NCBI GenBank assembly: GCA_902524345.1
Contig: CABZCX010000005.1
Location: 27,393 to 91,392, forward strand
Origin: an uncultured Pelagibacteraceae bacterium
GTDB taxonomy: Bacteria; Pseudomonadota; Alphaproteobacteria; Pelagibacterales; Pelagibacteraceae
DNA length: 64,000 bases
Direction of reading: 5' to 3'
Under the pieces are notes generated by a model. That model ran no database searches. It saw only the letters and a list, made by a program, of their open reading frames with translations, and was not told the DNA's origin. The position numbers and the translations under genes were made by a program. Shown in pieces: positions 19,804-36,408 of the stretch (position 1 is the stretch's first letter; the number at the start of each line of letters is the position of its first letter).

Positions 19804-21522
19804 ATGGCTAAGAAAAAAAGGAAAAAAGCTGTAATTAAAAAAAGAAAGAAAATAAAAAAGTCGATTAAAAAAAGAAAAAAACTTAAAGCGGTACGACAAA
19901 AAAAACTTTCTTCAGTAAAAAAACCTAAAAAAATTCTTAAGTCAAAATCAACAAAACGTAAAACAAGAGGAGTAAAAATGAGTGCAGAAGCGATGAAAGT
20001 GTCATCTGTATTGGATACTTCTCATTTAAAGGTTAAATTTCCATTTAAAGCCAAATATGGAAACTACATAAATGGAAAATTTGTGGAACCTAAATCAGGC
20101 AAATATTTTGATAATGTTAGTCCGATTTCTAATGAGAAAATCTGTTCAGTTGCGCGATCAAATGAGCAAGACGTTGAAGCGGCATTAGATGCAGCTCACG
20201 CAGCTTTCCCTGAGTGGGGAAAGACAGACATCACTACAAGATCAAACATCTTGTATAAAATTGCTGATGTTTTAGAAAAAAATCTAAACTTATTAGCTGT
20301 AGCTGAATGTTTAGATAATGGAAAACCTATCAGAGAATGTATGGCAGCAGATTTGCCTTTGGTTATTGATCATTGGAGATATTTTGCTGGGGTAATTAGA
20401 GCGGAAGAAGGATCTATCGCTGAGATTGCTAATAACCAATACTCATACAATTTTCATGAACCATTAGGAGTAGTTGGTCAGATAGTTCCGTGGAATTTCC
20501 CATTATTAATGGCGACATGGAAGTTAGCACCAGCACTTGCTGCAGGAAACTGTTCAGTTTTAAAACCAGCTGAGCAAACTCCAGCATCAATTATGGTAAT
20601 GATGGAACTAATTGGAGATTTATTACCTCCAGGAGTAGTTAACATTGTTAGTGGTTTTGGATTAGAAGCAGGTAAACCTTTAGCGTCTTCTAAAAGAGTT
20701 GCTAAAGTTGCATTTACTGGTGAAACAACAACTGGAAGATTGATTATGCAGTATGCTGCACAAAACATAATTCCAATTACTTTGGAATTAGGAGGAAAAT
20801 CTCCGAATATTTTCTTTGAGGATGTTATGGAAAAAGATGATGACTTCTTTGATAAATGTATCGAAGGTTTTGTCATGTTCAATCTTAACCAAGGTGAAGT
20901 TTGTACTTGTCCAAGTAGAGCTTTAATACAAGAGTCAATCTATGATAAATTCATGGAAAGAGCTATTGCTAGAACTAAAGCTGTTGTTCAAGATAATCCT
21001 TTAAAAATGGAAACAATGATTGGAGCTCAAGCATCAGTAGAGCAAATGGAGAAGATAAAATCTTATCTAGAGCTTGGTAAAAAAGAAGGTGCTAAAGTTC
21101 TGACCGGTGGTAGCGTTGCTAAATTAAATAGTGGATTGGAGAAAGGAAACTATATCCAACCTACTGTTTTTGAAGCTAAAAACGACATGCGTATATCACA
21201 AGAGGAAATCTTTGGACCTGTTGTATCTGTGATTAAATTTAAAGATGAAGCAGAAGCATTAAAAATTGCTAATGATACTCTTTATGGTTTAGGTGCAGCT
21301 GTATGGACTAGAAATGGAAATATAGCTCACAGAATGGGAAGAGCAATACAAGCAGGGATAGTATGGACTAATTGCTATCATGCTTATCCTGCTCACTCTC
21401 CATTTGGTGGTTACAAACAATCTGGAGTTGGTAGAGAAACTCACAAAATGATGCTTAATCATTACCGACAGAATAAGAACTTACACGTTTCTTATGCTGA
21501 GAAAAAATTAGGCTTCTTTTAA
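19804..21522 (+). CDS. NAD-dependent (acet)aldehyde dehydrogenase with Lys/Arg-rich N-terminal extension
   Basis: The core (from about residue 59) is a complete ExaC/AldB-type aldehyde dehydrogenase that oxidises acetaldehyde-like substrates. It has the Rossmann segment [18 protein letters not shown], catalytic Glu in ELGGKSPN and catalytic Cys in [11 protein letters not shown]. The first 58 codons are extraordinary: [16 protein letters not shown] and onward, over half Lys/Arg. An internal in-frame ATG at 19978 (MSAEAMKV) is preceded by AGAGGAG at good spacing and gives 514 aa, the family's usual size. The product may therefore start there, or two forms may exist. The DUF779 gene follows, as in many acetaldehyde dehydrogenase loci. 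Confidence 0.9.
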
Positions 21523-21536
21523 ACAAATAATATATA

Positions 21537-21565
21537 CTGGCCCATGATTCGATATCATGGGCCAG
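21537..21565 (+). terminator. Perfect 12-bp inverted repeat between the aldehyde dehydrogenase and DUF779 genes
   Basis: CTGGCCCATGAT and ATCATGGGCCAG pair perfectly around the loop TCGAT, 15 bp after the dehydrogenase stop. No U run follows on the + strand (AGAAAAAAT). It may therefore be a partial terminator or an mRNA-stabilising hairpin rather than a strong intrinsic terminator. The repeat contains the ATG chosen by the ORF track for the next gene, which argues for the later start. Confidence 0.6.
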
Positions 21566-21574
21566 AGAAAAAAT

Positions 21575-21928
21575 ATGAAAGTATCTGCAACACGTTCGGC
21601 TTTAAGCTTATTATCTGAATTAAAAGAAAAGTATGGTGAAAAATTGATGTTTCACCAATCCGGAGGATGTTGTGATGGAAGTGCGCCTATGTGTTTTCAG
21701 GAAGGTGAATTTCCTTTAGGTGATAATGATATAAAATTAGGTGAAATTGGAGGCGTCCCGTTTTACATGAATGGAGACCAATATGAAAAATGGAAACACA
21801 CCGATTTAACAATAGATGCAGTTAAAGGTATTGGTGGAATGTTTTCACTGGATAATGGCACAGGAAGAAGATTCTTAACAAAATCTGAAATTTGTCTTGT
21901 TGTCGATAACGATAATCCAAATCATTAA
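21575..21928 (+). CDS. DUF779 family protein
   Basis: This 117-aa protein has the DUF779 pattern: KLMFHQSGGCCDGSAPMCF with paired cysteines, then a C-terminal DLTIDAVKGIGGMFSLDNGTGRRFL. Its biochemical role is not established, but the family is commonly adjacent to acetaldehyde dehydrogenases, as here. The track starts at 21557 inside a perfect hairpin; the ATG at 21575 (MKVSATRSALSLL) leaves the hairpin untranslated and is preferred. Confidence 0.85.
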   Translation: MKVSATRSALSLLSELKEKYGEKLMFHQSGGCCDGSAPMCFQEGEFPLGDNDIKLGEIGGVPFYMNGDQYEKWKHTDLTIDAVKGIGGMFSLDNGTGRRFLTKSEICLVVDNDNPNH

Positions 21929-22849: not shown

Positions 22850-23647
22850 CTAATTATTTTCTATTCGGTCCATTTCTTTAAGTTCGACTTCTAACTTATC
22901 TAATTCCTCACCACCTGCCATCATGCTTAAAAGTTTTTCTCTAGATATATCTTTTTTTTGATATGTTCCCATACTTTTTCCTCGATTTAAAACTGTAAAA
23001 CTATTCCCAACAGGATAAGCATGATGAACGTTATGTGTTATTAAAATTACAGCTAAACCTTGTGATGCTGCTTTAACAATATATTTCAGGACCATTGAAG
23101 CTTGATGTACACCTAGTGCTGACGTTGGTTCATCTAATACCAAAACTTTTGCTCCAAAATAAATTGCTCTAGAAATTGCGAGACATTGTCTTTCACCCCC
23201 AGACATCGTGCCTACAGCTTGTGATGGGTCTCTAACATCAATACCTATTTGACCCATTCTTTCAGCGGCTATGGTGTTTGCTTTTTCAATGTCAAAAGTT
23301 TTGAAAAAAGGCAAACCTTTTTGTGGTTCTCTACCCATAAAAAAATTTCTTGTAACACTCATAAGGGAAACCAACGCTAGATCTTGATAAACAGTACCTA
23401 TCCCAATATCCAAAGCATCTCGTGGTGAGTCAAAAACTATTTTTTTGTCTTCAAAAATAATTTCACCTTCATCAGGCTTATGAACGCCTGCTAAAGTTTT
23501 TATCAAAGTAGATTTTCCAGCTCCATTGTCACCAAGTAAGCACATTATTTCGCCTTTTTTTAGTTTCATGGTGACGTCTTTCAAAGCAATTACTTTACCA
23601 AAAAATTTACTTATATTATTAAATTGAACTAAATATTCAGACATCAC
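22850..23647 (-). CDS. CUT2-type sugar/inositol ABC transporter ATP-binding protein
   Basis: This 265-aa ATPase powers import of a sugar or cyclitol. It has Walker A (GDNGAGKST), the signature [15 protein letters not shown] and Walker B ([12 protein letters not shown]). It has a single nucleotide-binding domain, like FrcA or the inositol transporter IatA-type ATPases in size class, not the double RbsA form. Its start overlaps the permease stop by 4 bp. It is the last gene of the iolG-like, binding protein, permease, ATPase series. Confidence 0.9.
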
Positions 23648-24771
23648 TTAGTCTCCGTAACTTTTTTTCTAATATAATTATTGAATACTACTGCAATTAA
23701 CATCATTGCGCCTAAAAAAACCTTAAACCAATCAGTATCGACATCTGTATAAAAAATTCCCATTGATACAGTGCCAAAAATAATAGCGCCCAATGCTGCT
23801 CCGATGGCAGAGCCATAACCTCCAGTCAAAAGACAACCGCCAACCACGGCAGCTGCTATTGCTTCCAATTCTTTTAAAGTTCCTCTCATAGTATCTGCTG
23901 AACCTGCATCTAAAACTTGAATACAAGCAAATATTGTCGATGCTACAGCTGTTCCAATAAATAGACTTATTTTTACTCTTCCAACAGGCACACCAACATT
24001 TGTAGCACCAACTTTATCTCCACCTGATGCAAATATCCAATTTCCATATCTAGTTTTCATAAGTATCCAAGTCGCAAATAATGTAAGAGCAATAAACCAT
24101 ATTACTGATGGTGGAATACCTGTAGCTAATGGTGTACCGTCAGTTCTCAGTGCAATTAATTTCATCGATCCTAGCCATGTGAATAACCATTGAAAAGTAT
24201 CTGTTGCAAACAACCAAGCAATTGGATCATCCTCTATTAAAACTCTTAACCCTGGTACTTGAGTTCTTCCTGTAATTAATCTCGTAATAGCCAAAGTTGC
24301 CCCTCTTAAAATGAACAACATTGCTAGAGTTACTATGAAGGATGGAAGACCAGTTTTTACCACCATTATACCATTGAAATAACCAATCAGTATTGCCATA
24401 GCAAAAGCAAAAATAATACTCGTCCATAAAGGCCAGCCCCAATAAATTGCAGGTATAGCGATACAGATTCCTGCAAAACCAATCATTGATCCAATTGATA
24501 AATCAAACTCTCCACCGATCATTAACATTGCAGCAGCAATAGCAATAATTCCTAAATTAGCCGAAACATCTAAAAAATTTAATGTTCCATAAGCGCTAAA
24601 CATTCCAGTGTCACCAGCAACTATTCCAAAAAAAATAAAAACTAAAATTGAGCCACCCAAAGCACCAAGCTCTGGTCTGTTTAATAAAACTCTAAGAGGT
24701 GAAATTTTTTTAAGTCTTTCATCTTGTCCACTATCTTTTTTAGATTGAATGCTCTCTGATTTTACAGACAT
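23644..24771 (-). CDS. CUT2-type sugar/inositol ABC transporter permease
   Basis: This 375-aa inner-membrane protein has the RbsC/FrcC-family pattern of about ten helices. The conserved [17 protein letters not shown] segment and the EAA-like region [27 protein letters not shown] are both clear. The N-terminus is a longer, charged cytoplasmic stretch ([21 protein letters not shown]). It follows the binding-protein gene after an intercistronic hairpin and overlaps the ATPase gene. Confidence 0.92.
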
Positions 24772-24843: not shown

Positions 24844-25767
24844 TTATCTATAACCTTGAGCTGCCCATTTAATTACTTTAGACGCATTGTCAGGAGTAAC
24901 AAACCCAGGTCCAGTCATTACTACACCTGCTGGCATTGTTCCCCATCTCATATATTGTCCAAAGATAGCTATTGGTAAATATCCTTGTAGATATTGCTGT
25001 TGATCAATTAAAAACTCTACTTTTCCTGCAGCAGCAGCTTTTAACATATTTGGAGACATATCAAATGTTCCTAATCTTACAGAACCAACTTTTCCAGCAG
25101 ACTCGAGTGCTTTCAAAGCTGCTTCACCAGACAATCCAGCACCTAAAGTTAGAATAGTGTCATAGCCACCACCTAATTTTGCAGCAACAGCTTTTTGAAT
25201 TTCTGTTGGGTCATTTGATGTACCTAAAATATCAACAGATCCACCAAAACCTTTTTTGAAACCAGCACATCTTCTATCAAGTGCAACGTTTCCTACCTCA
25301 TGGTTAACACATAATGCTTTTTTTCCACCAGCAGCTTTCATTTTTTGTCCACCACCTACACCTGCTTCAAACTCAGTTTGTCCAACGTGTGCACTAATTC
25401 CTAAAGATGCATAATCATCAGATCCAGAGTTCATTGATATTACAGGAATACCAGCAGCAATTGCAGCTTTAACTGATTTTCCTAAGGCTGCAGCATCTGG
25501 TAATGTGATCACTATACCTTTTGGTTTTTGTGATACAGCATTATCAATTAATTTTGCCATTTCTACCATGTCAAAAGTAGCTGGTGCTGTGTATTTGCAA
25601 GACACTCCCATGTCTTTACATCCAGCATCAACTCCATTTTTAGCAACTGACCAGAAAGGATCGTTTGCTTGACCATGAGAAACAACAATTATATCTACAG
25701 CTAAAGCAGATACAGACATCATTGTCCATGCAGCTAAAGCCAATATAAAGTTTTTTATTGTTTTCAT
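24844..25767 (-). CDS. Periplasmic sugar/inositol-binding protein of ABC transporter
   Basis: This 307-aa solute-binding protein has a signal peptide (NFILALAAWTMMSVSALA, cleavage likely after ALA) and the periplasmic-binding-protein type I fold. Typical segments are SHGQANDPFWSVAKNG, PAGIPVISMNSG-like (AAGIPVISMNSGSD) and IDQQQYLQGYLPIAIFGQY. The family binds ribose, fructose, xylose or inositol. Neighbouring IolG-, IolE- and IolD-like enzymes make myo-inositol or a relative the best guess. A 101-bp leader separates it from the upstream IolG-like gene. Confidence 0.9.
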   Translation of the reverse strand: MKTIKNFILALAAWTMMSVSALAVDIIVVSHGQANDPFWSVAKNGVDAGCKDMGVSCKYTAPATFDMVEMAKLIDNAVSQKPKGIVITLPDAAALGKSVKAAIAAGIPVISMNSGSDDYASLGISAHVGQTEFEAGVGGGQKMKAAGGKKALCVNHEVGNVALDRRCAGFKKGFGGSVDILGTSNDPTEIQKAVAAKLGGGYDTILTLGAGLSGEAALKALESAGKVGSVRLGTFDMSPNMLKAAAAGKVEFLIDQQQYLQGYLPIAIFGQYMRWGTMPAGVVMTGPGFVTPDNASKVIKWAAQGYR

Positions 25768-25868: not shown

Positions 25869-26870
25869 TTAAAGATTAAGTTTTTCAAACTTTTTTGATC
25901 TTAAAGATTTTTGAGCTGCATTCGCAATTATCAGAGCTTTTCTTCCCTCCTCAAATCCTGCAAGAGGTTGAATTTTCTTTCTAATAAATTTTGCAAAATC
26001 CTTTAATTGATTTTTATAAGCATCTTTATACCTCTCAATAAAAAAATTAAGCAAAGGAGATTTGTTCGAAGTTGATTGTGCAGAATATAAAGATGTCTCG
26101 TTTTGTCTTTTATTTTCTGAAATTAACATACCTTTTGATCCAAATAATTCTATTCTTTGATCATAACCGAAACTACAATGTCTGGAATTAGTTATTATGC
26201 ACTGAACACCAGCTCTAGATCTAATTATAGTAGATGCTAATTCAAAATCTTTTATTTTATCAAATCTTTTGTCTGATATGTTGCTACCAGAAGCTATTAT
26301 TTTTATAGGCTCATCATTACCAAGGTAGAATCTAACAAGATCAAAATCATGGATCATCATATCTCTAAAAATACCACCAGATTCTTTTAGATATTTCATA
26401 GTTGGTGGGGCAGGATCACGACTAGTGATAATAATTTTTTCTAATTTACCTATTTTTCCACTAAGTAATTGTTTTCTCAAACTATTGTGTGTTGGATCAT
26501 ATCGTCTATTAAAACCTAATTGTATTTTTGGATTTAATTTATTAATTTTTTTTTTACAGGTTTCAATTTTTTTAATACTTAAATCCAGTGGTTTTTCACA
26601 AAAGATAATTTTTCTATTTTTAACACCATCTAAAATAAATCTAATATGTGTCGATGTTGTTGAGGCAATAAAAATAGCTTTTACATCTTTATCTTTATAA
26701 GCCACAGATGGATTGTTTATAGCTTTTGTTTTTAATGTTTTTGAATATTTTTTAGATAATTTTTGTTCAATGTCATAAATATATTTAAGATTAAAATCTT
26801 TACTACGCATTAAATTTTTTCCATGCATAATACCAATTCTACCAAGTCCAAATAAAGCTATATCAATCAT
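25869..26870 (-). CDS. iolG: Inositol 2-dehydrogenase-like Gfo/Idh/MocA oxidoreductase
   Basis: This 333-aa NAD-dependent dehydrogenase probably oxidises myo-inositol to 2-keto-myo-inositol, the first step of inositol catabolism. The Rossmann fingerprint is IALFGLGRIGIMHGKNL. The EKP motif (IFCEKPLDL) carries the cofactor-binding lysine, and GGIFRDMMIHDFDLVRFYLG contains the catalytic Asp-His pair seen in IolG. The start is 44 bp from that of the divergent iolE-like gene. Assignment to inositol rests on the neighbouring iolE and iolD. Confidence 0.85.
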   Translation of the reverse strand: MIDIALFGLGRIGIMHGKNLMRSKDFNLKYIYDIEQKLSKKYSKTLKTKAINNPSVAYKDKDVKAIFIASTTSTHIRFILDGVKNRKIIFCEKPLDLSIKKIETCKKKINKLNPKIQLGFNRRYDPTHNSLRKQLLSGKIGKLEKIIITSRDPAPPTMKYLKESGGIFRDMMIHDFDLVRFYLGNDEPIKIIASGSNISDKRFDKIKDFELASTIIRSRAGVQCIITNSRHCSFGYDQRIELFGSKGMLISENKRQNETSLYSAQSTSNKSPLLNFFIERYKDAYKNQLKDFAKFIRKKIQPLAGFEEGRKALIIANAAQKSLRSKKFEKLNL

Positions 26871-26914
26871 TTAAAATTTGTATTAAAATAATAACTTAAC
26901 TAAAAAAATTTCTT

Positions 26915-27817
26915 ATGTCAGTAAAATTAGGAGTTGCACCTATCGCATGGAGTAATGATGACATGCCTGAGTTAGGTGGTGAAACTACATTAGAACAATG
27001 TTTAAAAGAAGCCAATGAAGCAGGCTACATAGGCATAGAGTCTGGTGGAAAATTTCCAAAGAAATCTTCGGAATTAATACCAAAATTAGATCAATTTAAT
27101 CTTAAACTTTGCTCAGGATGGTATGGCGCTAATCTAAGAAAAAATTCTGTTGAGGAAGAAAAAAAATCCATTCAAGAACAACTAGATTTATTTAAAGATT
27201 GTGATGCACCTTGTATAGTTTTCGCAGAAGTTTCTGGCTCTATACAAGGAGATCCTAATAGAAAATTATCAACTCGGCCTCAAATGGAAAGGGATGAATG
27301 GCAGAAGTTTTGTGAAAAAATTTCTGAACTAGGAAAATATTTAGAGGATCAAGGGATGCCTTTGGCATATCATCATCATATGGGAACAGTAATTGAAACT
27401 CAAAAAGACACTGAAAGACTCATAGAAAATACTCATGAAAGTGTAAAATTAACATTAGATACAGGACATATGTTATTTGCAAAAGGGGACTCCAAATCCA
27501 TATTACAAAATTATTATGAAAGAATTTTGCACGTCCACTGTAAAGATATAAGAAAACAAGTTCTTGAAAAATCTTTAAAAGAGGACTTAAGTTTTAGAGG
27601 TGCTTTCTTAGAAGGTGCGTTTACAGTACCAGGAGATGGTTGTATTGATTATCAACCTTTATTTAATGTATTAAAAAATAATAATTATTCAGGATGGTTG
27701 GTAGTTGAGGCAGAGCAGGATCCGGCAAAAGCAAATCCGTTAGAGTATGCAAAAATTGGTTATAATTATCTTACAGATACATTAAAAAAATCTGAAATTG
27801 AAATTTATAAAAATTGA
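26915..27817 (+). CDS. iolE: Inosose dehydratase-like TIM-barrel protein (IolE)
   Basis: IolE dehydrates 2-keto-myo-inositol to 3D-trihydroxycyclohexane-1,2-dione. The start LGVAPIAWSNDDMPELGGET is the IolE signature, followed by GYIGIESGGKFPK. Metal-site residues appear in MPLAYHHHMGTVIE, LTLDTGHMLFAKGD, LHVHCKDIR and WLVVEAEQDP. At 300 aa it is full length. It is divergent from iolG and ends adjacent to the convergent pilin-like gene. Confidence 0.92.
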   Translation: MSVKLGVAPIAWSNDDMPELGGETTLEQCLKEANEAGYIGIESGGKFPKKSSELIPKLDQFNLKLCSGWYGANLRKNSVEEEKKSIQEQLDLFKDCDAPCIVFAEVSGSIQGDPNRKLSTRPQMERDEWQKFCEKISELGKYLEDQGMPLAYHHHMGTVIETQKDTERLIENTHESVKLTLDTGHMLFAKGDSKSILQNYYERILHVHCKDIRKQVLEKSLKEDLSFRGAFLEGAFTVPGDGCIDYQPLFNVLKNNNYSGWLVVEAEQDPAKANPLEYAKIGYNYLTDTLKKSEIEIYKN

Positions 27818-28318
27818 TTATCTATAGAGTGAAGTTAGTTCATTATTTCCGGCAGCAACACATGGAGATTTAAAACAAGTACCCACAACCCATTCAGATC
27901 CAGGATCAGGTAAAAAATTTGATGACATCACAAATATAACACCCATCTCAACTGATTGCCCCGCCTTACCTTCTGCTTTAATTCTAGGATCAGGATCAGT
28001 TTTTACTTTAGTATCCTCTGAAAAAGGATTCTCTATATTAAGATTTTTGTTTATATAATTCACAACTTTGGATGAGGACCACTCGCCATTACACGGATCA
28101 CCCCAAACAGTCAATTTACCTTCATCATTATTCCCGCAATTATTTATTTCTCCATTGATAAAATCGACTACTTTCTTATGATTTTCTTTGACTAAGTTAG
28201 CTTTTGCTTCAACTGCGGGCCTTGTACTTGCGGTCCAAATCAACATCCCAACCACATATACTAACGACAACAACACTAATGCTTCTAATAGTCCAAAATT
28301 TTTGAAATTTATTCGCAT
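27818..28318 (-). CDS. Pilin-like single-pass membrane protein, unknown function
   Basis: This 166-aa protein has an N-terminal hydrophobic segment (NFGLLEALVLLSLVYVVGMLIW) that echoes a type IV pilin helix with its Glu, although the usual Gly-Phe processing site is not present. The rest looks extracytoplasmic. Four cysteines (INNCGNND, GDPCNGEW, GTCFKSPCVAAGN) could form two disulfides, the last pair near the C-terminus as in pilin D-loops. It is the last gene after the hydroxyacid dehydrogenase (2-bp gap), an odd place for a pilin-like protein. Function is not known. Confidence 0.65.
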   Translation of the reverse strand: MRINFKNFGLLEALVLLSLVYVVGMLIWTASTRPAVEAKANLVKENHKKVVDFINGEINNCGNNDEGKLTVWGDPCNGEWSSSKVVNYINKNLNIENPFSEDTKVKTDPDPRIKAEGKAGQSVEMGVIFVMSSNFLPDPGSEWVVGTCFKSPCVAAGNNELTSLYR

Positions 28319-28320
28319 AA

Positions 28321-29286
28321 TTAAAGTTTAATAATTTTTGATTTGTCTAATTTTTTTTCAAAAAAATCAATTATATTTTGTATTGTTTCTTTTCCCATTC
28401 TTATCATGCATTCCTCAGTAAATGCAGCGGTATGAGGACTTAAAAAAACTTTATTGTTTTTTAGCAAAGGATTATCCTCTTTAGGTGGTTCTGTTTCAAA
28501 AACATCTAAACCTGCACCAAATATGAGACTTTCATTTAATGCTTTATCTAAGTCATTCTCATTAATCATCCCACCTCTTGCAGCATTAATAATTATACAA
28601 TTTTTCCTCATTGTTTTAAGTAAGTCATAATTAATAATATTTTTCGTTTTTTCATTAAGAGGCATATGTAAAGAAATGGCATCCATAGATTTTACTGCTT
28701 CTGTAAGATCTTCAATTTTTTTTCCACCCAATTCCTCAATAATATCTTTTGAAACAAATGGATCATAAACAAAAACATTCATTTCAAATCCTTTACATCT
28801 TCTTATTAAAGATTGACCTATTCTTCCAAATCCAGCAATTAAAATATTTTTTTTCCAAAGTTCAATTGTTTTTGGAAGTTTGTTTCTGTTAGAAAAATTT
28901 CCTGATTTAACAGTCTCATCATACATGTTTTTTCTCTTCGATATATTGAGCAACATAAACATAACATGTTCTGCCACCGCAACAGCATTTGCTGTAGCCG
29001 TAATTGCCAAGGTGATATTTTTTTCTTTAGAAGACTTGAGGTCAATATTGTCGTACCCAACGCCGTGGCGAGATATAATTTTAAGTTTTTTTGATATATT
29101 GATTAATTCGCTAGATAAATTTGCTGTTCTAATTGATAGACCATCACACTCCAAAATTTTTTGTTTAATATCTTTGTTATCTATATTTTCAATAATCTCA
29201 TAATCATAATTTGGGTTATTCTTTATGAGATCTATCCCCGCGTTATGAATAGGTTGAATTATCAAAATTTTTTTTTTATCCGACAC
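28321..29286 (-). CDS. D-2-hydroxyacid dehydrogenase (SerA/glyoxylate-hydroxypyruvate reductase-like)
   Basis: This 321-aa NAD(P)-dependent enzyme reduces a 2-keto acid or oxidises a D-2-hydroxy acid. The Rossmann motif is AGFGRIGQSLIRRCKGF. Catalytic Arg, Glu and His fall in NAARGGMINENDL, GLDVFETEPP and FLSPHTAAF. It lacks the long C-terminal regulatory domain of true SerA. It follows the HpaI-type aldolase by 6 bp, so its substrate may be an aldolase product such as hydroxypyruvate, glyoxylate or a semialdehyde tautomer; this is inference. Confidence 0.87.
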   Translation of the reverse strand: MSDKKKILIIQPIHNAGIDLIKNNPNYDYEIIENIDNKDIKQKILECDGLSIRTANLSSELINISKKLKIISRHGVGYDNIDLKSSKEKNITLAITATANAVAVAEHVMFMLLNISKRKNMYDETVKSGNFSNRNKLPKTIELWKKNILIAGFGRIGQSLIRRCKGFEMNVFVYDPFVSKDIIEELGGKKIEDLTEAVKSMDAISLHMPLNEKTKNIINYDLLKTMRKNCIIINAARGGMINENDLDKALNESLIFGAGLDVFETEPPKEDNPLLKNNKVFLSPHTAAFTEECMIRMGKETIQNIIDFFEKKLDKSKIIKL

Positions 29287-29292
29287 TTGAAT

Positions 29293-30084
29293 TTAGTAAG
29301 CTTTAGAGTCTTCTTTTGATTTGATTGATTTTAATTTAGATACAGCATCTTTTGCACCTGCACTCATATACCTTTGATCAGATCCAATAGTTACCAAATT
29401 AAATCCTAAATTAAGCATTTTTTTTGCATACTCTGGACTAGCAATATGAATACCTGCAAAAATTTTATTTTTTTTTGCATGTTCCAAGATATTCAAAATC
29501 TTTTCATAAGTTGGACTTCCTTCAGGATTATCAAAAGCTGGTTTTTGACCTATGGCTAGACTTAAATCAGCAGGTCCAATATAAATTCCATCTATTCCAG
29601 GTGTACTCATAATTTCATCTAATTTATCCAAGGCCTCTTTTGTCTCTATCATTGCCATTTTTAAAATCTCATCATTTGCAAAATCTCCATAATCTGAACC
29701 TCCATAAATTAATCCTCTAATTGGTCCAAAACTTCTATACCCTTTAGGGGGATACATGCATGCTTGAACAAATTTTTCAGCTTCAAATTTGTTGCTCACC
29801 ATTGGACAAATTACGCCGTAGCACCCTGCATCTAAAATTTTCATTATTTGTCCTGGTTCATTCCAGTTTACTCTTGCTAAAGGAGTAACATCCGTAGATG
29901 AAATTGATTGCAGCATTTGTAATGCATTTGGATAATCTATAACACCATGTTGCATATCAATTGTAAGCGAGTCCCAACCTTGATGAGACATTACTTCCGC
30001 TGAAAAAGAGCTAGGAATTTGTAACCAGCCATTAATTATTTGCTCACCATCTCTCATCATCTTTTTTATTTTATTTGGCCTCAT
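29293..30084 (-). CDS. HpcH/HpaI-family aldolase
   Basis: This 263-aa class II aldolase cleaves a 4-hydroxy-2-keto acid to pyruvate and an aldehyde. The N-terminal INGWLQIPSSFSAEVMSHQGWDSLTIDMQHG matches the family, with metal-binding Glu and Asp in MIETKEALD and DGIYIGPADLSLAIG. The family includes 2-keto-3-deoxyglucarate aldolase and HpaI. It sits directly after an aldehyde dehydrogenase gene and before a hydroxyacid dehydrogenase, in an operon divergent from iolD. Confidence 0.9.
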   Translation of the reverse strand: MRPNKIKKMMRDGEQIINGWLQIPSSFSAEVMSHQGWDSLTIDMQHGVIDYPNALQMLQSISSTDVTPLARVNWNEPGQIMKILDAGCYGVICPMVSNKFEAEKFVQACMYPPKGYRSFGPIRGLIYGGSDYGDFANDEILKMAMIETKEALDKLDEIMSTPGIDGIYIGPADLSLAIGQKPAFDNPEGSPTYEKILNILEHAKKNKIFAGIHIASPEYAKKMLNLGFNLVTIGSDQRYMSAGAKDAVSKLKSIKSKEDSKAY

Positions 30085-31527
30085 TTAAGATTTCAAACCA
30101 AGGTGAGTGTACTTTATATTTAGATAATCTTTAATTGCCATTGAACCACCTTCACGACCATATCCAGTTTGTTTAATTCCACCAAAAGGTGCCTCAGCTA
30201 TCGCAACTGCAGGAGTATTTACTGCAACAGTACCAGTTTCCATTAATTCTGAAGCTCTGTGAGCTTTATCCATAGAATTTGTATAAATATAACTACATAA
30301 TCCTAAGTCATTATTATTAGCTCTCTCAACTACTTCATCAAAAGTTTTAAATGACAACATTGGAACTAATGGACCAAATGGTTCTTGTTGCATTATTGTA
30401 AAATTATCCTTTACATTGTCAAAAACTGTTGGTTCATAAAAATAGCCTTTGTTAAAACCTTGAGGTCTTTTTCCACCCAATAAAACTTTTGCTCCTTCCT
30501 TTTTAGTTGTTTCAACTAATTCTTCGATTTCTCCTAATCTTTTTGCAGTTGTTAAAGGACCTAATTGAACTCCATCATCTAAACCATTTCCTATTTTTAA
30601 TTTTTTTGTTCTTTCAATAAACGCATTAATGAATTCATCTTTTCTATTTTCTTGTATATAAAATCTGTTAGGTGAAATACAAACTTGACCATTATTTCTA
30701 AATTTTGCAGTAATTGCCATATCTGCAACTTTATTTATATCAACATCATCAAAAACTATAAAAGGTGAGTGTCCACTAAGCTCCATTGTTACTCTTTGAA
30801 CTTTGTCTGCGGCTTTTTTTAAGATTAATTTTCCTACTCTTGTTGATCCAGTAATTGAAACCTTTTTAATAATATCAGACTCTAACAACTCATTTGAAAT
30901 ACTTTCAGGATCTCCTGATAATAAGTTTACAACTCCAGGAGGGACTCCCGCTTCTTTACAAATATCTACTAACTCCATTACTGTTCCTGGAGTAATTACA
31001 TCAGGCTTACAAATTACTGAACATCCGGCAGCTAATGCTGTTGAAATTTTTCTCGCTGCTAGAATTAAAGGAAAATTCCATGGCACTAAAGCTGCTACAA
31101 CTCCAACTGGCTGATAATAAACATGAACTCTCGTATCTGGAAATCGACTTTCGACTGTTTGTCCATAAATTCTCTTTGTTTCTTCAGCATTCCACTCAAA
31201 AATATCAGCAGCCCCACCAGTTTCGCCAATTCCCTCAGCTAAAGGTTTTCCAACTTCAATCGTTAACCATTTTGCTAAAACATCTTGTTTTTTTCTTAAA
31301 AGATCAGCAATTTTTCTAATAATATATGATCTCTGCCAAGGTAAAGTGTTTTTCCAAACTTCCAAACCTTTCTCTGCAGATTTAAGAGCTTTTTGAACAT
31401 CTGCTGAAGACGCTTTAGACGCTTGGCCAATAATTTCTTCCGTAGCAGGATTTATAACATCGTAAGTTTCTTTTTTTTCAGCTTGTTGCCACTTACCATC
31501 AATGAACTGCCCAAATTTACTATACAT
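30085..31527 (-). CDS. NAD(P)-dependent aldehyde dehydrogenase (succinate-semialdehyde dehydrogenase-like)
   Basis: This 480-aa aldehyde dehydrogenase of the GabD type has VPWNFPLILAARKISTALAAG, catalytic Glu in MELSGHSPFIV and catalytic Cys in NNGQVCISPNRFY. The track begins at 31638, but its first 37 residues (Cys/Phe-rich, unlike any dehydrogenase) overlap the divergent iolD. The ATG at 31527 (MYSKFGQFIDGKWQ) is the family start. It leads an operon with the aldolase and hydroxyacid dehydrogenase. The likely substrate is a semialdehyde or uronate-type aldehyde from the neighbouring pathway. Confidence 0.92.
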   Translation of the reverse strand: MYSKFGQFIDGKWQQAEKKETYDVINPATEEIIGQASKASSADVQKALKSAEKGLEVWKNTLPWQRSYIIRKIADLLRKKQDVLAKWLTIEVGKPLAEGIGETGGAADIFEWNAEETKRIYGQTVESRFPDTRVHVYYQPVGVVAALVPWNFPLILAARKISTALAAGCSVICKPDVITPGTVMELVDICKEAGVPPGVVNLLSGDPESISNELLESDIIKKVSITGSTRVGKLILKKAADKVQRVTMELSGHSPFIVFDDVDINKVADMAITAKFRNNGQVCISPNRFYIQENRKDEFINAFIERTKKLKIGNGLDDGVQLGPLTTAKRLGEIEELVETTKKEGAKVLLGGKRPQGFNKGYFYEPTVFDNVKDNFTIMQQEPFGPLVPMLSFKTFDEVVERANNNDLGLCSYIYTNSMDKAHRASELMETGTVAVNTPAVAIAEAPFGGIKQTGYGREGGSMAIKDYLNIKYTHLGLKS

Positions 31528-31581
31528 AATTTTTATTTTATGGTTAATTAAGCGAAATTTTAAGAGAATATATCTACAATT

Positions 31582-33426
31582 ATGAAAAAAATAAAGCTTA
31601 CATGTGCTCATGCAATTGTAAAGTTCCTGACTTCTCAAAAAATTCTTATCGATGGTAAAAAAGAACCTTTATTCGCTGGTGCTTTTGGAATATTTGGTCA
31701 TGGTAATGTAGCTTGTTTAGGACAAGCTTTAGAGGAAAATAAAGATAAACTTCCAACTTATAGAGGTCATCATGAGCAAAATATGGCTTTAACAGGAATT
31801 GCTTACGCTAGAGCAAAAAGAAGAAAACAAGTATTTGTAGCAACAAGTTCTGTAGGTCCTGGATCTACAAATATGGTAACAGCTGCAGCAGTTGCGATGA
31901 GTAATAGACTGCCAATTTTATTTCTTCCGGGTGATACTTACGCAAACAGGATGCCTGATCCAGTTTTACAACAAGTAGAACATTTTAATAATCCAGGAAT
32001 TACTCAAAATGATGCTTTTAAACCAGTTACAAAATATTTTGATAGAATAACCAGACCAGAACAAATTTTACAAACATTTCCCCAAGCTGTACAAGTTTTA
32101 CTAGACCCAGCTGATTGTGGTCCAGTATGCATATCTCTATGCCAGGATATACAAGGTGAAATTTTTGATTATCCTGAGGATTTTTTTAAAGAAAAAATCC
32201 ATAATATACGAAGACCAAGACCTGATGATTTTCAAATAAAAGAGGCAGCTGAAAAAATTAAAAAATCAAAAAATCCAATTATAATTTCTGGTGGAGGTGT
32301 TTTTTACTCAGATGCAATGGAGGAACTTTCTACATTTGCAGTTAAACACAATATACCTGTAACACAAACTGTAATGGGTTATTCTTCTATGAAAAGAGAT
32401 CATTCTCATTTTTTAGGACCTATTGGAGGTCTAGGAGGAAAAGCAGCAAACAACTTTGCAAAAAAAACTGATTTAGCAATTGCTATTGGAACTAAGTTAG
32501 GAGATTTCACAACTGGGTCATGGTCCAATTTTGAAAATCCAAATTTTTCATTAGTATCAATTAATGTTGCAAGATTTGATGCTAGTAAACATATGGCACA
32601 ATCAATTATTGGAGATGCAAAAGTTTCTTTAAATGAACTATCACAAGCTTTAGGTGATTGGAGAGCATCTGAGGAATGGCATAAAAAATCAAGAGATGAA
32701 CTTAAATCTTGGAATGAATATGTTGATAAAGAAAGTGGACCAACTAATCAAAAACTTCCAAGTTATGCACATGCAGTTGGTGCAATTTATAGAAACTCTG
32801 ATCCAAGTGATATCGCTGTTACTGCAGCTGGAGGTTTGGTAGGTGAAGTTGTTCAAATTTGGAGACCAAGAGAACTTAATACTCATGAAACAGAGTGGGG
32901 CTTTAGTTGTATGAGTTATGAAATTTCTGGAGCTTTAGGAATTAAAATGGCCAACCCAAACAAAGAAGTTATCACATTTGTAGGTGATGGATCATATTTA
33001 CTTTATAATTCAGATATATATTCATCTGTAATAACTAATAATAAACTAATTGTAATTGTCTGTGATAATGGTGGTCACGCTGTCATTAATAGGCTTCAAT
33101 TATTTAAAGGTGGAAAAGAATTTAATTGTTTGTTTGAGAGTTCAAATGTTTCAAATTTAGTAAAAGTAAATTTTGCAAAACATGCAGAAAGTATGGGGGC
33201 AAAGTCTGAAGAGGTAAGTTCTATCAGTGAATTAGAGGAAGCTTTCAAAAGAGCGAAGAAATCAAAAGTGACTTACGTTATTTCAATCAAAACTCATTCG
33301 TATCAATGGCTTGAAGGATCAGCTTATTGGGAAAGTCCAACTTTAGAAATTCCCAAAACCAAAGAAAATGAAAAAGCTCTAAAATTACACAAAGAAGGTA
33401 AAGCAAAACAAAGACAGGGAGTATAA
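31582..33426 (+). CDS. iolD: 3D-(3,5/4)-trihydroxycyclohexane-1,2-dione hydrolase IolD
   Basis: This ThDP-dependent enzyme opens the inositol ring to give 5-deoxy-D-glucuronate. It has IolD features along its 614 aa: GAFGIFGHGNVACLGQAL, YRGHHEQNMALTGIAYARA (ThDP Glu in HEQ) and SSVGPGSTNMVTAAA. The C-terminal ThDP-binding motif is FVGDGSYLLYNSDIYSSVITNN. It is divergent from the aldehyde dehydrogenase operon and heads a + strand series with a Gfo/Idh enzyme and ROK kinase. This is the strongest marker of inositol catabolism here. Confidence 0.95.
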   Translation: MKKIKLTCAHAIVKFLTSQKILIDGKKEPLFAGAFGIFGHGNVACLGQALEENKDKLPTYRGHHEQNMALTGIAYARAKRRKQVFVATSSVGPGSTNMVTAAAVAMSNRLPILFLPGDTYANRMPDPVLQQVEHFNNPGITQNDAFKPVTKYFDRITRPEQILQTFPQAVQVLLDPADCGPVCISLCQDIQGEIFDYPEDFFKEKIHNIRRPRPDDFQIKEAAEKIKKSKNPIIISGGGVFYSDAMEELSTFAVKHNIPVTQTVMGYSSMKRDHSHFLGPIGGLGGKAANNFAKKTDLAIAIGTKLGDFTTGSWSNFENPNFSLVSINVARFDASKHMAQSIIGDAKVSLNELSQALGDWRASEEWHKKSRDELKSWNEYVDKESGPTNQKLPSYAHAVGAIYRNSDPSDIAVTAAGGLVGEVVQIWRPRELNTHETEWGFSCMSYEISGALGIKMANPNKEVITFVGDGSYLLYNSDIYSSVITNNKLIVIVCDNGGHAVINRLQLFKGGKEFNCLFESSNVSNLVKVNFAKHAESMGAKSEEVSSISELEEAFKRAKKSKVTYVISIKTHSYQWLEGSAYWESPTLEIPKTKENEKALKLHKEGKAKQRQGV

Positions 33427-33431
33427 CCCTA

Positions 33432-34592
33432 ATGGGCAAAGTATTTAAAGTTGGTTTAATTGGTTGTGGTCATATCGCAGAAACATATTTCAGAGCTCAC
33501 AAATATTTTAAAAATTTTAAAATCATTAAATGTGCAGATGTTAAAGAAAAAGCAGCTAAGAAATGTGCTAAAATTAATAAAATTGAAGCAGTTTCGGTAA
33601 GTAATTTATTTAAAGATAAACAGGTTGAAATAATTTTAAATCTAACCCCTCCAAAAGTTCATTACCAAATTGCAAAAAAGTCTTTGTTAAATGGAAAACA
33701 TGTATACTCAGAAAAACCATTAGCAATTAATTTAAAAGACGGAAAAGAATTACTAAAGCTCTCAAAAAAAAAGAAATTATATTTAGGAAATGCTCCAGAT
33801 ACTTTTTTAGGAGGAGGCAATCAAAAATCAAAAGAATTATTAGAAAGTAAAAGTTTAGGCAAAGTAAATTTAGGTAATGCGATTTTTGCTTTTCCAGGAG
33901 TTCAATCTTATCATCCAGACCCAGAACCATGGTTTGCAAAAAAAGAAGGTGGTCCAGTAATTGATATGGGACCTTATTATCTCACAGCATTAGTAAATTT
34001 ATTGGGTCCAGCAAAAGAGGTAAAAGCAGCAAGTTTAATGAAAGGTTCAAGATTTAGAACAATTGGTATTGGTCCAAAAAAAGGAAAAAGAATTAAGGTA
34101 GATTGTCCGACGACATATTTTACAACAATCATATTTAAAAATGGAAGCATAATCAGACTCACTTTATCTTTTGATGTTATAGCCCATCAAAGAAATCATA
34201 TCGAACTTTATGGAACCAAAGGTTCAATGATTGTACCAGATCCTAATATGTTTGGTGGTTCAGTTTATGTATGTAAAAAATTAGGAAGCCCATGGAGAGA
34301 ATTTAAAACAAATCAAATGCCACTAGGAAAAATTAATATTAGAACGCAAAGTTCTAGAGCAAATGAGTCACCTACTAACGCAAATTACAGAGGAGTTGGT
34401 CTTGCAGAAATGGCTTATTGTATTGATAAAAAAAAGATACATAGATGCAATGGAGAAGTATCTTTGCATGTTCTTGACTTGATACAATCAACTATGCAAT
34501 CTGCTAAAACAAATAAACCAATTAGACTTAGTACAACATGTAAAATTCCAAAACTTTTTATTAATAAAGAAATAAATAAATTAATGAGATAA
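33432..34592 (+). CDS. Gfo/Idh/MocA-family oxidoreductase
   Basis: This 386-aa dehydrogenase has the Rossmann motif VGLIGCGHIAETYFRAH and the cofactor lysine in VYSEKPLAINL. The catalytic region GGPVIDMGPYYLTALVNLLGPAKEV has Asp and Tyr where IolG has Asp and His, so its substrate differs from that of the iolG-like gene at 25869. It follows iolD by 5 bp and precedes a sugar kinase by 3 bp. It may act on another inositol isomer or a related sugar. Confidence 0.85.
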   Translation: MGKVFKVGLIGCGHIAETYFRAHKYFKNFKIIKCADVKEKAAKKCAKINKIEAVSVSNLFKDKQVEIILNLTPPKVHYQIAKKSLLNGKHVYSEKPLAINLKDGKELLKLSKKKKLYLGNAPDTFLGGGNQKSKELLESKSLGKVNLGNAIFAFPGVQSYHPDPEPWFAKKEGGPVIDMGPYYLTALVNLLGPAKEVKAASLMKGSRFRTIGIGPKKGKRIKVDCPTTYFTTIIFKNGSIIRLTLSFDVIAHQRNHIELYGTKGSMIVPDPNMFGGSVYVCKKLGSPWREFKTNQMPLGKINIRTQSSRANESPTNANYRGVGLAEMAYCIDKKKIHRCNGEVSLHVLDLIQSTMQSAKTNKPIRLSTTCKIPKLFINKEINKLMR

Positions 34593-34595
34593 AAT

Positions 34596-35498
34596 ATGCA
34601 GATTGGTATTGATCTTGGGGCAAGTAAGATAGAGTATGTGTTATTAGATGATGTTGGCAATGAGCATCATAGAGAAAGAACTGAGGTTCCAAAAAATTAT
34701 AAAGATACATTATCCATAATTAAAAAAATAGTTATCGAACTTGAGCGTAAAGCTGGTAAAGAATTACCAGTGGGTGTATGTCATCCAGGGATTCATTCTA
34801 TTCAAACAGGACTAGTTAAAAATGCGCCTAATTCTTTTTGGATAAATGGCAAACCTTTACAAAGAGATTTACGGAGTGAGATTGGTAAAGAAATTTATTG
34901 TGAAAATGATGCAAACTGTTTTGCTTTATCAGAAGCAATAGATGGTTCTGGAAAACATTACAAAATAGTTTTTGGGGTAATTCTTGGATCTGGTGTTGGG
35001 GGCGGTTTAGTTATAGATAAACGAATTGTCAATGGACCTAATGGGATTACTGGAGAATGGGGGCATAATCAAATACCGAGCGCTTGTATTGAAGGTGTTC
35101 AAATAAAAAAAACCAATTTAAGAGCTGGAGAAATAGAAAACTTTGTTGCGGGTATAGGTATTTCTAAAGCGTTCAAAAACGAGTTTAAAAAGGATTTATC
35201 TGCCCAAAAGATATTTGAGATGCATAGAAAACTTGATTTAGATGCAGAAAAATTAATTGATAAATATAAAGATCAACTCGCTATGTCTTTAGCCACTGTT
35301 GTTAATATTATTGATCCAGATGTGTTTGTTTTCGGGGGCGGGGTATCTAACGAAATAAATTTTTTAGATGAAATTAAACAAAAAATGAAAAAATTTGTAG
35401 CAGGGGGTGAATTTGAGGGGACTTTTTTAAAACCCAAATTTGGTGATGCAAGCGGTGTTCGGGGCGCAGCTCGATTAGCAAGAACCACAAATTATTGA
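34596..35498 (+). CDS. ROK-family kinase lacking the zinc-site cysteines
   Basis: This 300-aa protein has the ASKHA phosphate motif IGIDLGASKIEYVLLDD, the CENDANCFALSEA active-site region (Asp catalytic base) and LGSGVGGGLVI. ITGEWGHNQIP keeps the ROK histidine. The usual CxCGxxGCxE zinc loop is replaced by NLRAGEIENFVAG with no cysteine. Mak/NagK-type enzymes phosphorylate fructose, N-acetylglucosamine or mannose. Its place in the iolD operon suggests a sugar or sugar acid from that pathway. It is not related to IolC, which is a PfkB-type kinase. Confidence 0.88.
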   Translation: MQIGIDLGASKIEYVLLDDVGNEHHRERTEVPKNYKDTLSIIKKIVIELERKAGKELPVGVCHPGIHSIQTGLVKNAPNSFWINGKPLQRDLRSEIGKEIYCENDANCFALSEAIDGSGKHYKIVFGVILGSGVGGGLVIDKRIVNGPNGITGEWGHNQIPSACIEGVQIKKTNLRAGEIENFVAGIGISKAFKNEFKKDLSAQKIFEMHRKLDLDAEKLIDKYKDQLAMSLATVVNIIDPDVFVFGGGVSNEINFLDEIKQKMKKFVAGGEFEGTFLKPKFGDASGVRGAARLARTTNY

Positions 35499-35559
35499 CT
35501 AGTGAATAAAATTCATTTACTACAAAAGGAGCTAATTATTTAAGTCTAGGAAGATAAAT

Positions 35560-36408
35560 ATGAAATTATGTAGAATAGGTAGTGTTGGAGAAGAAAAACC
35601 AGCAATCATAGATAGTGAAAACAATTACCGAGATTTGTCATCAATAATTAATGATTTTAACCCTGACACATTAAATTTTGATACATTAGAGAAAATAAAA
35701 AAAACTGATATTTCAAGTTTACCAAAGCTTGATTCAAGTTCTAGAATAGGTGCATGCGTCTCTAACCCATCAAAATTTATTGGCATTGGTTTGAATTTCA
35801 AAGATCATGCTGAAGAACAAAATTTACCAATTCCAAAAGAGCCAATTATTTTCTCAAAGTTTACAAGTTGTATCACAGGACCAAATGATCCAATAGTTGT
35901 ACCAAAAGGATCTAATCATACCGACTGGGAAGTTGAAATTGGTTTTGTAATAGGAAAAAAAGCTATCAATGTCAGTGTTGAAAACGCCTTAGATCATGTT
36001 CTAGGTTTTTTTCTTGTAAATGATGTGAGTGAAAGAGATTTCCAAAAAAATAGAGGTTTAACTTGGGATAAAGGAAAAGGTTTTGATACATTTGGTCCAA
36101 TAGGACCATTCGTAGTTACTAAAGATGAATTACCAGACTATCAAAATTTAGATATGTTTTTAGATGTCAATGGGAAAAGGATGCAAACCGGAAATACAAG
36201 TAAAATGATTTTTAATATCAAAAATTTAGTATCTTACATGAGCTCATGTATGAGCTTACATCCTGGTGACATTTGTTGCACGGGAACTCCACCTGGTGTT
36301 GGTGAAAACATGAAACCACCTGTTTTCTTAAAAGGCGGTGAAGAAGTCGTTTTGGGAATAGACAAGCTAGGTCAACAAAAACATAAAGTCATTCCTTATA
36401 AAGATTAA
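35560..36408 (+). CDS. Fumarylacetoacetate hydrolase-family protein
   Basis: This 282-aa enzyme of the FAH superfamily has the core FIGIGLNFKDHAEEQNLPIP, then DWEVEIGFVIGKKA, NDVSERDFQ and GDICCTGTPPGVG. The metal-binding acids are in the DWEVE segment and upstream Glu residues. Members hydrolyse or decarboxylate diketo or 2-keto acids, including 2,4-diketo-3-deoxy sugar acids. Its proximity to the iolD operon (61-bp gap after the kinase) and the HpaI aldolase suggests a keto-sugar-acid step. The exact reaction is unknown. Confidence 0.87.
   Translation: MKLCRIGSVGEEKPAIIDSENNYRDLSSIINDFNPDTLNFDTLEKIKKTDISSLPKLDSSSRIGACVSNPSKFIGIGLNFKDHAEEQNLPIPKEPIIFSKFTSCITGPNDPIVVPKGSNHTDWEVEIGFVIGKKAINVSVENALDHVLGFFLVNDVSERDFQKNRGLTWDKGKGFDTFGPIGPFVVTKDELPDYQNLDMFLDVNGKRMQTGNTSKMIFNIKNLVSYMSSCMSLHPGDICCTGTPPGVGENMKPPVFLKGGEEVVLGIDKLGQQKHKVIPYKD

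Follow-up and report, generated by a model that had tools for sequence, protein, structure and literature searches.

The canonical pathway of bacterial inositol catabolism, encoded by iolGEDBCJA in Bacillus subtilis and by a set with an iolC-DUF2090 gene in proteobacteria, uses IolG, IolE and IolD in both forms and in both yields malonate semialdehyde as a product. The same three enzymes are encoded in an inositol island of an uncultured member of the Pelagibacteraceae (SAR11), located in a 64,000-nucleotide stretch of contig CABZCX010000005.1 (positions 27,393 to 91,392; assembly GCA_902524345.1) that is hereafter called the window. The island differs from the canonical systems in being without IolB, IolC and DUF2090, and carries an operon, divergent from iolD, for an aldehyde dehydrogenase (ALDH), an aldolase of the HpcH/HpaI family (HpaI) and a D-2-hydroxyacid dehydrogenase (HADH); two proposed oxidations would replace the isomerisation and phosphorylation of the canonical route. 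Apparently, a known upper half of inositol catabolism is joined here to a new lower half. We put at roughly 55% the probability that this lower branch is oxidative and non-phosphorylating, leading from 5-deoxyglucuronate to 5-deoxyglucarate and, after oxidation at C2, to malonate semialdehyde and hydroxypyruvate.

Similarities to other described pathways are more limited. The D-glucarate/galactarate pathway (GudD/GarD, GarL, GarR) also has an aldarate intermediate and an aldolase of the HpcH/HpaI family, and it was to glucarate catabolism that the initial annotation of this locus likened the island. However, the substrate in the island would be a deoxy-aldarate, the core island contains no dehydratase, and oxidation at C2 is proposed instead of dehydration. 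The canonical cleavage is the closer parallel, in that IolJ/DUF2090 breaks the same C-C bond as the proposed HpaI step and likewise releases malonate semialdehyde, although in the island's substrate a carboxylate would stand where the canonical one has its phosphate, and the second three-carbon product would be hydroxypyruvate rather than dihydroxyacetone phosphate. The inositol pathway of Thermotoga (IolM/IolN/IolO) bypasses IolB and IolC, and also IolE and IolD. Thus, both it and the island avoid IolB and IolC, but the island has IolE and IolD and the Thermotoga route neither.

SAR11 bacteria are the most abundant heterotrophs in the surface ocean. The host genome comprises 1.085 Mb in 16 contigs and is estimated to be ~90% complete; the named iolD loci closest to that of the window all belong to uncultured Pelagibacteraceae, and iolD occurs in 159 of 397 sampled genomes of the family (~40%). 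Searches with NCBIfam and Pfam profiles recovered in place every gene that had been named in the initial annotation, including the ring-opening genes, whose products all reach the cut-offs of their models (Table 1). As shown by homology, a CUT2-type ATP-binding cassette (ABC) transporter, IolG, IolE and IolD are predicted to take myo-inositol to 5-deoxyglucuronate.

The canonical enzymes that would act on this intermediate were sought throughout the genome and its relatives. IolB (PF04962) was found in none of 80 SAR11 genomes, a sample that comprised 68 IolD-positive genomes and included the window genome; the six control genomes were all positive. No match to IolC (TIGR04382) in the same 80 genomes exceeded the 300-bit cut-off, the sub-threshold matches scoring 73 to 110 bits and occurring in IolD-negative genomes as well. 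The best of them in the window genome (84 bits) belongs to a generic PfkB kinase, and IolD-negative genomes encode kinases of this sort too. DUF2090 (PF09863), the proteobacterial counterpart of IolJ, forms a fusion with IolC in most of the proteobacterial inositol users that have been characterised (PMC9007349). None of the 20 SAR11 genomes in which it was sought has it, and both canonical comparison genomes do; the Bacillus-type class II IolJ, the profile of which overlaps fructose-bisphosphate aldolases, was not searched for. Loss of iolB and iolC through incomplete assembly was considered and rejected, because both are also missing from G003 and G063, two IolD-positive SAR11 genomes that each consist of a single contig at 99% completeness. 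The absence of IolB and IolC first noticed in the window is therefore genome-wide, and the suggestion that the missing genes might lie elsewhere in the genome does not hold for IolB, IolC or DUF2090. An IolA-type enzyme, methylmalonate-semialdehyde dehydrogenase (MMSDH), is encoded elsewhere in the window genome (G000:C1:275305-276738; 703 bits, cut-off 448.5). It is compatible with the proposed route and not specific to it, because IolD-negative relatives encode MMSDH too.

The genes of the divergent operon are linked to iolD throughout SAR11. In counts across 80 named SAR11 iolD loci, in which only loci with enough flanking sequence were considered for each gene, ALDH and HpaI were in place at every locus and HADH at all but one (Table 1). 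A close homologue of HpaI (at least 67% identity) is present in 47 of 48 IolD-positive SAR11 genomes versus 1 of 20 IolD-negative ones (Fisher p about 1e-14, with no correction for relatedness), and in the sole IolD-negative genome that has it, G156, the contig ends inside the adjoining ALDH gene. The association of the operon with iolD, which the initial annotation had set as a check, is thus borne out, and together with the absences described above it supports an oxidative route in general. The genes for a ROK sugar kinase and an FAH-family hydrolase, which follow iolD in the window, were found at the equivalent place in only 31/67 and 31/64 loci, respectively. From these counts, the divergent operon belongs with iolD, and ROK and FAH are replaceable neighbours. 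Both were rejected as core enzymes on this basis, and the parts once envisaged for them, FAH in dehydration or keto-acid chemistry and ROK as a stand-in for a missing enzyme, are not supported.

The stretch next to the SAR11 iol island is a swappable sugar cassette, represented by ROK and FAH here and by a ribose-type set in G063-type genomes. At the G063 locus (L164, 1879-7959), the place of ROK and FAH is taken by genes for a further 2-hydroxyacid dehydrogenase, for an ABC transporter of the ribose type and for two proteins that resemble RbsD and a PfkB ribokinase, respectively. The recurrence of a sugar kinase after iolD at many loci, whether ROK or PfkB, is what might be expected if the canonical sequence of isomerisation, phosphorylation and aldol cleavage were carried out by non-homologous enzymes (an isomerase, a ROK or PfkB kinase and the HpaI aldolase), with ALDH serving malonate semialdehyde. 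We consider this improbable: ROK is missing from more than half of the loci, the one PfkB copy read completely, that of G063, looks like a ribokinase given its RbsD-like and transporter neighbours (on which ground it was also rejected as a replacement for IolC), HpaI works on 2-oxo acids and not on the ketose phosphate of the canonical route, and no isomerase candidate was found, DUF2090 being absent as well.

An oxidative lower branch can be written with the three core enzymes of the operon. C1 of 5-deoxyglucuronate is an aldehyde, and the other end of the molecule is a CH2-COOH group. ALDH would oxidise the aldehyde to give 5-deoxyglucarate, in which a carboxylate now lies beside the C2 hydroxyl; HADH would oxidise this R-configured hydroxyl to give (3S,4R)-3,4-dihydroxy-2-oxoadipate; and HpaI would split the C3-C4 bond of the latter, releasing malonate semialdehyde and hydroxypyruvate. 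Malonate semialdehyde would proceed to acetyl-CoA via the MMSDH encoded elsewhere in the genome, and hydroxypyruvate would yield glycerate on reduction or serine on amination. Aldolases of the HpaI family require a 2-oxo acid with a 4-hydroxyl, and so, with only the three core enzymes, a single order (ALDH, HADH, HpaI) works. The initial annotation had HADH reducing a fragment after the aldolase. A position ahead of the aldolase suits the dehydrogenase better, because there it would make the 2-oxo acid that HpaI needs, and with HADH in this position the expected aldolase product is hydroxypyruvate instead of the pyruvate proposed earlier.

The stereochemistry can be followed through the same steps. 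Configurations were assigned with a script that included controls, giving R for C2 of 5-deoxyglucarate and 3S,4R for the oxo acid, and D-2-hydroxyacid dehydrogenases take the R configuration at C2. Among solved structures, the island's aldolase is closest to the hydroxyketoacid aldolase of Sphingomonas wittichii (6r62; E about 1e-53), which we take to be the HpcH1 enzyme of a review of the HpcH/HpaI family. According to that review, HpcH/HpaI aldolases, HpcH1 among them, accept hydroxypyruvate as a nucleophile, with the C3 of the product exclusively S (PMC7610986). The functional groups and stereochemistry fit the proposed route. Active-site residues of all three enzymes are also strictly conserved: Q45, H46, R71 and R123 of HpaI in 36/36 sequences, the catalytic R237, E266 and H285 of HADH in 28/28, and, in 19/19 sequences of ALDH, E249 and C283 together with R159 and R288, two arginines that align with those of GabD (3jz4), its closest structure. 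A histidine in the SAR11 aldolases aligns with the active-site phenylalanine that contacts hydroxypyruvate in the Sphingomonas enzyme; it was rejected as a signature of the island's aldolase, since other SAR11 HpaI paralogues carry it too.

Conceivably, as in the initial annotation, 5-deoxyglucarate could instead be dehydrated to 4-hydroxy-2-oxoadipate, which HpaI would cleave to pyruvate and malonate semialdehyde, leaving HADH to reduce one of the products. The chemistry is sound, malonate semialdehyde is again produced, and 2-keto-3-deoxy acids are what HpaI, GarL and RhmA aldolases cleave naturally. HpaI and GarL are, moreover, the best profile matches of the island's aldolase, which scores 160.5 bits against TIGR02311 (4-hydroxyphenylacetate meta-cleavage HpaI; cut-off 368.8) and 136.4 bits against the GarL equivalog (cut-off 406.75). 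Such a route requires a dehydratase, however, and none was seen in a search that covered the genes of the core island and those of the operons in G466, G480 and G742, alphaproteobacteria that are discussed below; the patchy occurrence of FAH argues against it as well. Dehydration is therefore viewed as unlikely.

The proposed oxidative route appears to occur outside SAR11 too. In a sample of 385 alphaproteobacterial genomes, IolD is encoded in 56, of which 54 fall outside SAR11. PF04962 is matched in 33 of these 54, including one degenerate copy with internal stops (G627) that was counted as negative, which leaves 22 IolB-negative and 32 IolB-positive genomes. Homologues of HpaI (E up to 1e-40) were detected in 14/22 of the former and 11/32 of the latter, and HpaI is paired or clustered with HADH in 10/22 versus 2/32 (p = 0.001, uncorrected for relatedness). 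Both IolB-positive cases reside in iol clusters with an iolD of their own: G466 has an IolG-ALDH-HpaI-HADH operon divergent from IolD-IolE, alongside canonical IolC-DUF2090 copies, and in G411 HpaI adjoins IolD, with ALDH, HADH and IolE nearby. Among IolB-negative genomes, G480 has an ALDH-HpaI-HADH operon and G742 an HADH-HpaI-IolG group divergent from IolD. Because it recurs across alphaproteobacterial lineages, the association of iol genes with HpaI and HADH is no accident of SAR11.

In a tree of HADH proteins, those encoded next to iolD in SAR11, in two genomes labelled HIMB59-like (G426 and G730) and in G556 form one clade (99/97), and those of G466, G480 and G742 a separate one (100/99). 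In the HpaI tree, the proteins of G466, G480 and G742 share a clade with G683, G728 and the HIMB59-like genomes, and SAR11 stands apart, on an unresolved backbone. Spread of one module by a single transfer was rejected on account of this separation. At the HIMB59-like loci (L235 in G730 and L236 in G426), HpaI lies beside IolG/IolE and HADH beside IolD, with ALDH and a second Gfo/Idh gene near.

Several observations weigh against the oxidative reading. None of ALDH, HpaI and HADH passes an equivalog cut-off, and all three belong to broad superfamilies. ALDH, which resembles succinate-semialdehyde dehydrogenase (SSADH), could act on malonate semialdehyde instead, and HADH could act after the aldolase, for example by reducing hydroxypyruvate, in keeping with the usual preference of hydroxyacid dehydrogenases for reduction; if they acted there, the 2-oxo acid would go unexplained unless a dehydratase is encoded elsewhere. 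The genomes compared are phylogenetically non-independent. HpaI homologues are also present in several IolB-positive genomes, and G018 and G742 have no MMSDH over the cut-off. Some IolB-less, IolD-positive genomes, such as G483, G517, G523, G595 and G763, are without HpaI, and therefore at least one further route from 5-deoxyglucuronate exists. In the HIMB59-like genomes, divergent relatives of IolB and IolC that score below the respective cut-offs (152/205 and 296/300 bits in a scan of G426) are encoded near HpaI, ALDH and the second Gfo/Idh gene, so that the two lower branches may be present side by side or have become mixed. In the five HpaI-less genomes just named, only iolG-iolD or iolG-iolD-iolE groups were seen (loci L208, L209, L212 and L237 for G517, G523, G595 and G763).

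Table 1. The inositol island and its flanks. Positions are counted from the first nucleotide of the window; the last column gives SAR11 iolD loci with the gene in place over loci with enough flank.
Feature	Position	Strand	Profile match	Loci
ABC transporter ATPase, CUT2 type, of the island uptake system	22850..23647	-	PF00005	53/54
ABC transporter permease	23644..24771	-	PF02653	53/54
Periplasmic binding protein; probable ligand inositol or a derivative of it	24844..25767	-		53/54
IolG, inositol 2-dehydrogenase	25869..26870	-	TIGR04380, 355.2 bits (barely reaching cut-off 355)	53/54
IolE, inosose dehydratase	26915..27817	+	TIGR04379, 413.8 bits (cut-off 290)	60/60
Conserved small protein (166 residues), last gene of divergent operon	27818..28318	-		67/69
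D-2-hydroxyacid dehydrogenase (HADH), phosphoglycerate dehydrogenase-like	28321..29286	-	PF02826/PF00389	71/72
HpcH/HpaI class II aldolase	29293..30084	-	PF03328, 112 bits (cut-off 25)	75/75
NAD(P)-dependent aldehyde dehydrogenase (ALDH), SSADH-like	30085..31527	-	PF00171	76/76
IolD, ring-opening hydrolase giving 5-deoxyglucuronate	31582..33426	+	TIGR04377, 807 bits (cut-off 715)
Second Gfo/Idh/MocA oxidoreductase	33432..34592	+	PF01408/PF22725	73/74
ROK sugar kinase, accessory	34596..35498	+	PF00480	31/67
FAH-family hydrolase, accessory	35560..36408	+	PF01557; NF053535, 392 bits (cut-off 500)	31/64

The remaining genes of the island bear on what enters the pathway. Immediately downstream of iolD is a gene for a second Gfo/Idh/MocA oxidoreductase that probably feeds in another inositol isomer or derivative. 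The near-constant presence of this enzyme (Table 1), the persistence in G466 of canonical clusters beside the oxidative one, and the binding protein, which among NCBIfam models scores best with that of the rhizopine substrate-binding protein and whose closest solved structure is a CUT2 binding protein (4ru1), could all indicate that the natural substrate is a different inositol, for example scyllo-inositol, an inosamine or an O-methyl-inositol, which the second dehydrogenase would feed into the same lower branch. We hold this to be a rather unlikely account of the natural substrate, since IolG and IolE pass the myo-inositol models and the binding protein falls under the rhizopine cut-off (316 bits against 420). 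It is, in any case, compatible with the oxidative lower branch and does not exclude it. The divergent operon ends in a gene for a small protein that has conserved cysteines and whose N-terminal helix is long (AlphaFold2 model, pLDDT 74); it had no match in Pfam, and a fold search with the model gave nothing significant. Elsewhere in the window (19804-21928, + strand), a gene for another aldehyde dehydrogenase is followed by one for a DUF779 protein, and the same pair recurs in G466, close to its oxidative iol cluster (L224, 12670-15716).

Within the open literature, subscription journals and preprints being outside the scope of the search, nothing was found that describes 5-deoxyglucarate, the conversion of inositol to hydroxypyruvate and malonate semialdehyde, or inositol catabolism in SAR11. 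One survey, in which more than 6,000 species were scored as inositol-positive, demanded that three of iolB, iolC, iolD and iolE be present together (PMC9430895). Taking the comparisons within and beyond SAR11 together, we tentatively propose, with somewhat less assurance than we attach to the island's oxidative branch itself, that an inositol pathway not described before, independent of ATP and leading via 5-deoxyglucarate and 3,4-dihydroxy-2-oxoadipate, operates in SAR11 and in several further lineages of alphaproteobacteria, with hydroxypyruvate as a natural aldolase product. If this is true, generically annotated pairs of 2-hydroxyacid dehydrogenase and HpaI would gain a testable function, and a large fraction of the bacteria in the ocean would obtain carbon from inositol by way of a new lower branch, the hydroxypyruvate product of which would connect inositol in the sea with glycerate and with the demand of SAR11 for glycine and serine.

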